Positions 1,597-4,583 of a stretch of 64,000 nucleotides of DNA are shown here, one piece after another. Each line of letters opens with the position of its first letter. Position 1 is the stretch's first letter. A program made the translations under genes and the position numbers. The notes below the pieces were generated by a model, which made no database searches, was not told the DNA's origin, and saw only the letters and a list, made by a program, of their open reading frames with translations. Where the stretch lies: the NCBI GenBank assembly GCA_013286145.1, contig JABDGH010000003.1, positions 1-64,000 of the forward strand. Reading direction: 5' to 3'. Source of the DNA: Verrucomicrobiota bacterium. Its GTDB lineage: Bacteria > Verrucomicrobiota > Verrucomicrobiia > Methylacidiphilales > UBA1321.

Positions 1597-4413
1597 ATGC
1601 CCGAACTCGCCAAAGCTTACGAACCGCAACAGGTCGAAGATCGCCTCTATCAAAAGTGGCAGGATGGCGGCTATTTCAAGGCCGATCCGAAATCGACCAA
1701 GCCCGCCTATTCCATCGTCATGCCGCCGCCGAATGTGACGGGCAAGCTGACGCTCGGGCACGTCCTCAACAACACGATCCAGGACATCCTGTGTCGCAAG
1801 GCGCGCATGGAGGGCAAGGAAGTGCTCTGGCTTCCCGGCACCGACCATGCCGGACTCGCCACGCAAACCGCCGTGGAAAAGCATCTGCGCCAGACCGAAA
1901 AAAAGACGCGCCACGAGATTGGCCGCGAGGCGTTTGTGAAGCGCATCTGGGACTGGAAACACGAATTTGGCGGCATCATCACGCAGCAACTTCGCAAAAT
2001 CGGCTGCTCCTGCGATTGGTCGCGCGAACGCTTCACGATGGATCCTGATTACGAACGCGCCGTGCAGGAAGTCTTCGTAAAGCTCCACAGAGAAGGCCTC
2101 ATCTATCGCGGCACACGGATGGTCAACTGGTGCCCCGGTTCCCTCACCGCCATTTCCGACGAGGAAGTAATCCCGACCAAGCAGAAGGGCTCGCTTTATT
2201 ACGTGAAGTATGAATTGGTCTCCGTGGTAGCCGCCGCTGTCCCTAGCGGCGATGAATTTCCCTCCGGCAATCCCCAAGCCCCGCCGCTAGGGACAGCGGC
2301 GGCTACCACTTATCTCGAAGTCGCAACCACGCGTCCCGAAACGATCATGGCCGACGTTGCCCTTGCCGTGAAACCGGGCGGCAAGTGGGCGCATCTCGTT
2401 GGCAGGAAGGTATGGCGTCCGCTCCACCGCGAGCAAATTCCCATCATCGCCGACGAGGCCGTGGAAGAAGGCTTCGGCACTGGTGTGCTCAAAGTCACGC
2501 CCGCCCACGACAAGACCGATTACGAAATCGGCAAACGCCACAAGCTGCCCGTCATCGACATCCTCACGCCGAACGCAAAAATCAACGATCCCGGTGAGCA
2601 CGATGCCTCCGAACTTCATGGGCTGGATCGCTTTGAGGCGCGGAAAAAATCGGCAGAACTGCTTAAAGATCGCGGCCTGCTTGTTAAAGAAGAACCTTAC
2701 GAAAATACCGTCGGCTTCAGCGAACGCGCCAACGTTCCCATTGAGCCGCGCCTGAGTTCTCAATGGTTCCTGAAGTATCCAAACATCAAGGAAGCACTCG
2801 CCCTGCTGCAAAAAGGCCACGTCAAATTTCATCCCCAGCATTGGACAAAAGTCTATCAGCACTGGCTCGAAAATATCCAGGACTGGTGTATCTCCCGTCA
2901 GGTCTGGTGGGGGCATCGGATTCCGGTTTGGTATCGGGTTGATCACACTCCACTGATTGATTCATCCTCATCACCCACTGAAATCGTCGAAGTTGAAAAA
3001 TTCAGAAAGGATTTCGCTAAAGGAAATCTTTGGGCACCAGACGAAATCCTTTGTCAGATCGAATCCCCCGGCGAAGGCTGGGTACAAGACCCTGACTCGC
3101 TCGACACATGGTTCTCGTCATGGCTCTGGGCCTACGAGACGATGCAGACCGAGGACGGCACGCGGCAAAAGTTTTATCCGACCAGCGCACTCGTCACTGG
3201 TCCCGACATCATCTTTCTCTGGGTGGCGCGGATGCTCATCGCCGGGCTTCATTTCAAACCGAATGGAGCCGAAACGCTCGAAACGAATCTTGCCTTCAAG
3301 GATGTCTATTTCACCGGACTGATCCGGGACAAGCAGGGTCGAAAACTCTCGAAGTCGCTCGGCAACTCGCCCGATCCGCTTGAACTCATCGCCAAGTATG
3401 GCGCAGATGGTCTGCGCTTCGGTCTTGTCCGTATCGCACCACAGGGCGCCGACATCCGCTTCGACGAAAAGCAGATCGAGGAGGGCCGCAATTTCTGCAA
3501 CAAGCTCTGGAACATCTGCCGCTTCCGCGCCATGCAGGGGCCGATTGATCCGAAGGCTGATCCGTTCCAGCACTCGCGCTCGATCTTCGCCGACGAACTT
3601 CTCGACCGGCTCCACTTCCTCCTCGAAGGCGAACGCAATGCCATCGAAGCGCTGAATCAGTACAATTTCAGCGAAGCCGCCAGTCAGCTTTACGATTTTG
3701 TCTGGAACGAATTTGCCGCGCGCTATGTTGAGGCGGCAAAAATCGATTTCGCTCAAACCGATTCCCCCACTCGCGCCGGAACTCTCGCCACTTTTGACTA
3801 TGTGATGAGTCATGTCCTGCGCCTGCTCCATCCTTTTGCGCCGTTCGTGACCGAGGAGCTCTGGTGCGAACTCGGTTTTGGTGCGGAGACCGTTCAACTC
3901 CAAAACTGGCCTGTGAAATCGCCGCGTTCAAAGGATTGGTCGCCCCGTGCGCAGGAAATTTATATGACCGCCGATGTGGGTCGTACGCTTCGAGGTGAAA
4001 TCAAGCTCCCCTCCAACCAGAAAATTCCATTTTTTCTCGTTACCAGCGCACTCGTTTCCAAGAAACGCCCACTGGCCGATGATCAAAAGGCGGTGTTGAC
4101 GGCATTCCTGAATGCTTCCGAAATCCAGGTTCTTGATTCCCCGCCCGCCAATCCCGGACCGAAAGCTTTCACCCAACTTGGCGATCTTTACCTCCCCGCC
4201 ACCGGCCTGGTCGATCCCGGCGTGGAAAAGGATCGTCTGGTCAAGGAATTGGCGAAGGTGGAGAAGGATCTCGAACAGACTCGGCGCAAGCTGGGCGATG
4301 CGAATATGCTCGCGAAGGCTCCGCCTGCTAAACTGGAAGAATGGCGCGCATTGGAAATTTCCCTGGGCGAAAAGGAGAAATCACTTCGTGAGAGCCTGGC
4401 GAAGTTGGAATGA
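1597..4413 (+). CDS. valS: Valine--tRNA ligase
   Basis: MPPPNVTGKLTLGHVLNNTIQDIL (HIGH region), KLSKSLGNSPDPLELI (KMSKS), YLEVATTRPETIMAD editing domain, C-terminal coiled coil. Confidence 0.96.
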   Translation: MPELAKAYEPQQVEDRLYQKWQDGGYFKADPKSTKPAYSIVMPPPNVTGKLTLGHVLNNTIQDILCRKARMEGKEVLWLPGTDHAGLATQTAVEKHLRQTEKKTRHEIGREAFVKRIWDWKHEFGGIITQQLRKIGCSCDWSRERFTMDPDYERAVQEVFVKLHREGLIYRGTRMVNWCPGSLTAISDEEVIPTKQKGSLYYVKYELVSVVAAAVPSGDEFPSGNPQAPPLGTAAATTYLEVATTRPETIMADVALAVKPGGKWAHLVGRKVWRPLHREQIPIIADEAVEEGFGTGVLKVTPAHDKTDYEIGKRHKLPVIDILTPNAKINDPGEHDASELHGLDRFEARKKSAELLKDRGLLVKEEPYENTVGFSERANVPIEPRLSSQWFLKYPNIKEALALLQKGHVKFHPQHWTKVYQHWLENIQDWCISRQVWWGHRIPVWYRVDHTPLIDSSSSPTEIVEVEKFRKDFAKGNLWAPDEILCQIESPGEGWVQDPDSLDTWFSSWLWAYETMQTEDGTRQKFYPTSALVTGPDIIFLWVARMLIAGLHFKPNGAETLETNLAFKDVYFTGLIRDKQGRKLSKSLGNSPDPLELIAKYGADGLRFGLVRIAPQGADIRFDEKQIEEGRNFCNKLWNICRFRAMQGPIDPKADPFQHSRSIFADELLDRLHFLLEGERNAIEALNQYNFSEAASQLYDFVWNEFAARYVEAAKIDFAQTDSPTRAGTLATFDYVMSHVLRLLHPFAPFVTEELWCELGFGAETVQLQNWPVKSPRSKDWSPRAQEIYMTADVGRTLRGEIKLPSNQKIPFFLVTSALVSKKRPLADDQKAVLTAFLNASEIQVLDSPPANPGPKAFTQLGDLYLPATGLVDPGVEKDRLVKELAKVEKDLEQTRRKLGDANMLAKAPPAKLEEWRALEISLGEKEKSLRESLAKLE
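2224..2309. repeat. 28-bp perfect inverted repeat with 30-nt loop inside valS, in frame
   Basis: gtggtagccgccgctgtccctagcggcg (2224-2251) is the exact reverse complement of 2282-2309. Confidence 0.95.
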
Positions 4414-4427
4414 TGCTTTCACGAGCC

Positions 4428-4530
4428 GTCATCCTGAACGAAGTCGAAGGATCGGCTTCCGAAAGGTGCACACATAATTCGAAAATCGATGGTTTGCCGG
4501 GAGCTGATCCTTCGACAAGCTCAGGATGAC
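4428..4530. repeat. Paired-arm dispersed repeat (GTCATCCTGAACGAAGTCGAAGGATC ... GATCCTTCGACAAGCTCAGGATGAC)
   Basis: Inverted arms 4428-4453 and 4506-4530; same family as 31015, 44448 and 53200 elements. Confidence 0.85.
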
Positions 4531-4583
4531 GGAAACTGAATAATAAATGCGACGGTCATAGACCGCCGCTACATTAGAACTAA

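Follow-up and report, generated by a model that had tools for sequence, protein, structure and literature searches.

A head-to-head pair of GTAG REPs in the valS reading frame of a Verrucomicrobiota bacterium, probably translated as an extra loop

The main text of Di Nocera et al. (2013; PMC3733652) describes GTAG REPs inside genes, as single elements and as dimers, in bacteria that include Verrucomicrobia, with Opitutus terrae the richest in such copies. It suggests that the intragenic copies sit in flexible linkers or loops. The in-frame hosts given there include uvrA and tRNA synthetases among housekeeping genes, and valyl-tRNA synthetase (ValRS) is not named as a host in that main text. 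Only for recB, in two Xanthomonas species, does it report REPs at nearly the same coding position in different species. As described by Bertels and Rainey (2011; PMC3116915), REPINs are extragenic inverted REP doublets with a spacer; they form hairpins and are associated with RAYTs. In Rickettsia, palindromic repeats of about 150 bp are translated in frame in unrelated host proteins (PMC10969869).

The element analyzed here lies in valS of a Verrucomicrobiota bacterium and shares features with all three systems. Like the GTAG superfamily as set out in the text of PMC3733652, its REPs have a GTAG tag and a stem-loop and are mostly intergenic, with some copies in frame. The superfamily also forms head-to-head dimers 20-100 bp apart, and the valS element is likewise a head-to-head dimer. 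Its REP type, called type A below, is a GTAG REP by tag and hairpin, and was not matched to a family listed in that paper. The inverted doublet, spacer and hairpin are those of REPINs, as is the RAYT association, seen for type A in a congener; unlike the REPINs described there, the valS doublet is inside a coding frame. Compared by description, it also resembles the Rickettsia elements in being probably translated in frame, but it is 86 bp long, differs from them in sequence and is found in Verrucomicrobia.

The window is the whole stretch of 64,000 nucleotides analyzed. valS occupies positions 1597-4413 of its forward strand and encodes an intact ValRS of 938 residues. The protein scores 1022 bits with NCBIfam PRK05729 (cut-off 704) and 887 bits with TIGR00422 (cut-off 612), and contains the Pfam domains tRNA-synt_1, Anticodon_1 and Val_tRNA-synt_C. 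Residues invariant across 34 ValRS are present in it. Judged by its sequence, the enzyme appears intact outside the inserted segment.

The original prediction described a perfect 28-bp inverted repeat with a 30-nt loop inside the valS frame. We found the 28-nt arms at 2224-2251 and 2282-2309, 100% complementary and 30 nt apart, which is far above chance expectation. RNA of positions 2200-2335 is predicted to fold at -73.8 kcal/mol, whereas dinucleotide-shuffled versions give -41.2 ± 3.5 (z -9.5). The palindrome (2224-2309) is not one single palindrome but two REPs placed head-to-head, similar to a REPIN. Each arm contains GTAG and its own hairpin, CCGCCGCT-GTCCCT-AGCGGCG; the GTAG is unpaired at the foot of a stem-loop with a 7-8 bp stem and a 6-nt loop. 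The first monomer is located at 2227-2251 on the forward strand and is translated VAAAVPSG. It is followed by the 30-nt spacer (2252-2281, forward strand) and the inverted second monomer (2282-2306, reverse strand), which reads PLGTAAAT on the forward strand. TCCGTG, the usual neighbor of the tag in type-A REPs, is found at 2221-2226 of the forward strand. TCCGTG or TCCGAG adjoins 43 of the 93 type-A monomers in the congener G007.

The valS frame crosses the element as S-VVAAAVPSGDEFPSGNPQAPPLGTAAATT-Y, an exact match to the translation given earlier. Through the forward monomer only the GTA-GCC-GCC frame is open. Of the two other forward frames, one stops at the TAG in GTAG and the other at the TAG in CCCTAG, so the reading frame is forced. 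All five in-gene elements found in G007 read the forward REP in the GTA-GCC-GCC frame. This common open frame is an outcome of survival and not a sign of selection for the peptide.

Comparison with relatives indicated that the segment is extra to ValRS. It is missing from about 100 ValRS loci, most of them verrucomicrobial, in which the site is a short turn; this rules out a clade-wide ValRS feature. In the relatives, (L)YY.(R/K)YE leads almost directly to the TTRPET motif, as had been predicted: 14 residues separate fixed markers in most of them and 39 do so in the window, about 25 more. The alignment thus finds the segment absent in nearly all relatives rather than conserved in the clade. 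Replacement seems to have affected about five residues (some 15 nt) of the ancestral turn, so either the insertion itself was not clean or the site changed afterwards. The closest full-length ValRS, 87% identical, has its own unrelated insert at the site, and the exact boundaries of the insertion are therefore unreadable. Forks within the genus are not resolved in the ValRS tree, which gives no count of insertion events. An assembly artefact is unlikely because valS continues in a single frame on either side of the element.

Mapping on structure, proposed with the original prediction, placed the segment in a loop between strands. In an AlphaFold2 model, residues 212-235 have pLDDT below 50 and are flanked by strands at residues 191-207 and 239-244. 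In Thermus ValRS (1gax sequence), residues 204-209 correspond to the site. The segment has no match among PDB sequences. The model suggests that the segment is disordered and links two β strands. At 2947-3039 (residues 451-481), another loop is modeled with low confidence and exceeds its counterparts in relatives in length. This second loop has no REP likeness by eye, and the congener G001 has a REP in the same region.

The arm is not unique in its genome. A pattern search, which the original prediction had called for, found 13 type-A monomers (0-1 mismatch) at nine places in the own genome, and eight further monomers of the stem variant GTAGCCGCCGATGTCCCTATCGGCG. This variant is compensated, with both sides of the stem altered together (CGCT/AGCG versus CGAT/ATCG). 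The majority of the type-A monomers are located outside long coding frames. Most matches at three mismatches simply repeat these hairpins as seen from the opposite strand. Six of the seven congeners contain type-A matches, 7 to 122 per genome with the highest number in G007; the pattern is nearly palindromic, so such counts include some hairpins twice. G003 is the sole congener with no type-A pattern match. Outside the genus, 0-2 matches are found, equal to the level of the control pattern.

Dimers in the own genome (n = 4) have spacers of 29-30 nt, and some are outside long coding frames. The valS spacer belongs to the same length class as those of the intergenic dimers and is unlike them in sequence. 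In G007 the spacers are mostly 19-22 nt. Singlets are about as frequent as doublets in the own genome. The REP survey covered sampled genome stretches only; in G007, 5 of the 74 sampled type-A elements are within genes.

Other repeats are found beside valS. Downstream of the gene, a single intergenic REP of another GTAG type (GTAGCGGCGGTCTATGACCGTCG, 37 matches in the genome) is located at 4550-4572 on the reverse strand. The resemblance of the valS arms to 4549-4572, noted in the original prediction, holds at the level of the GTAG superfamily. The REP type is different, which rules out the valS arm being a copy of that element. In addition, a repeat TCATCCTGARCGAAGTCGAAGGATC flanks valS on both sides (1454-1478 and 4429-4453, exact to pattern), and an inverted copy accompanies it near 4498-4516.

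The genus also encodes RAYTs associated with such REPs. A RAYT gene of G007 (C49; 166 residues; NCBIfam REP_Tyr_transpos, 102 bits, cut-off 80) is located between two head-to-head type-A REPs, one of them with a single stem change. A related RAYT in the own genome (C6:25597-26049, 149 residues) scores 82.6 bits with the NCBIfam REP-associated tyrosine transposase model, and is bracketed by head-to-head REPs of type GTAG CCGCCGACGGCCCGTCGGCGG. In the own assembly, which is 66% complete, none of the RAYTs found has type-A REPs themselves as its flanks. An alignment of RAYT homologues (row L202 excluded) contains the HUH (HIH/HLH) and Tyr motifs. Such RAYTs are published to recognize GTAG REPs in single-stranded form, with cleavage at CT (PMC8266576). 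In valS a CT is present at 2220-2221, shortly ahead of GTAG, and the insert may start there. The first PF01797 match in the own genome was another RAYT-type transposase gene (C2:707-1072) with long, TIR-type inverted repeats. These flanking repeats are non-GTAG, which rules the gene out as a likely partner.

We conclude, with a probability of roughly 0.9, that the valS segment is a non-autonomous mobile head-to-head GTAG REP pair that inserted in this lineage and is translated as an extra loop. The dispersed arm, its GTAG hairpin, the absence from nearly all relatives and the RAYT association in the genus support the tolerated REP-type insertion originally predicted, and the dimer structure and the intact frame are observed as well. 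The pair would have been inserted into valS by transposition in the window's lineage, most likely by a RAYT that works in trans on REP hairpins in single-stranded DNA. The GTA-GCC-GCC frame is open through the forward REP, and the spacer keeps the inverted REP open. Translation would yield a segment of about 29 residues rich in Ala, Pro, Gly and Ser. Because the site is a short turn between β strands just ahead of the editing domain, an additional disordered loop there probably leaves folding and activity of the enzyme intact. The effect on ValRS would then be near neutral.

The loop could instead be a variable part of ValRS that expanded by coding change in this lineage, palindromic by chance or codon bias and not mobile. 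Its length does vary in the genus, and in G003 it has 29 extra residues whose likeness to REPs is not above background. However, the arm repeats exactly at many other places, contradicting a palindrome by chance or codon bias. It also bears the GTAG tag, occurs beside a RAYT and has a fold z-score of -9.5. We regard this expansion as very improbable. A similar non-REP expansion is seen in the same ValRS loop of G003 (AFAGMAPES, L045:3550-3759) and G001 (AFGGMAPES, L042:3550-3858).

REPs recur in valS of the genus: three of its seven valS genes contain a total of four insertions, which occupy three sites. In G001, the loop occupied in the window contains two inverted copies of another GTAG REP, GTAGCCGTCGACCTCCGGGCGACGG, that have decayed slightly. 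The stems of its two monomers are compensated (TTG/CAA versus TCG/CGA). A second loop in the same gene contains an exact single copy of the GTAGCCGTCGACCTCCGGGCGACGG REP. In G002, a type-A dimer with perfect 32-nt arms is located at a third place, ahead of the KMSKS motif. The same in-frame position thus holds different REP families in different species, type A in the window and GTAGCCGTCGACCTCCGGGCGACGG in G001. The valS insertion is not an isolated accident within the genus.

Genes other than valS are also hosts. In G007, type-A elements are found in PolX, MetH, a GlcF-like protein, UvrA and DsbD. In-gene copies were screened by codon score at a fixed threshold, and alignment revealed the one in DsbD, so the true number is at least five. 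The linker of DsbD between DsbD_N and the membrane domain (L127, L217-L222) contains an in-frame GTAG REP or remnant in seven of eight species. At least three REP types are represented. The weakest remnant, in G003, is 84% alike, compared to a background 95th percentile of 68%. The remnants have diverged, yet the frame is kept. A further seeming remnant (VARRSTATTE) is located ahead of the thioredoxin domain in DsbD of G007 (L220).

These cases bear on whether the segment reaches the protein. Ribosomes might pass over it by programmed bypassing, or it might be removed from the RNA, leaving a protein without it, and a perfect hairpin of this length within a conserved gene does resemble bypassing elements. 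The segment is nevertheless in frame and stop-free. In-frame REPs elsewhere occupy the sole open forward frame and the diverging DsbD remnants have kept theirs, both of which would be superfluous under bypassing. This makes bypassing or removal the least probable of the explanations considered.

Selection for the element within valS is also improbable, although less so. Its mRNA hairpin may slow ribosomes before the editing domain, or the loop may tune the enzyme. If true, this would account for the repeated REP insertions in valS of the genus, four at three sites, and the predicted RNA hairpin is very stable. On the other hand, REPs are also located in linkers and loops of unrelated genes. 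The valS genes of G004, G005 and G006 have no REP at this loop, and the two arms of the G001 pair no longer match perfectly.

Together with the DsbD linker, a mobile REP pair in valS raises the tentative idea that some protein loops of the genus are standing docking sites, where one REP may take the place of another or insert anew, perhaps through RAYTs that target REPs already present. The recurrence of different REP families in one loop may reflect targeting, conversion or tolerance alone. In-frame REP insertion is of a known kind, and the finding that REPs of several families share coding loops within one genus goes a little beyond it. In valS a mobile hairpin probably gives an essential enzyme an additional translated loop, and the same genus has a RAYT system and parallel cases. 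The genus may therefore serve as a natural experiment for studying how proteins gain sequence from short mobile DNA and why certain protein loops contain REPs again and again.
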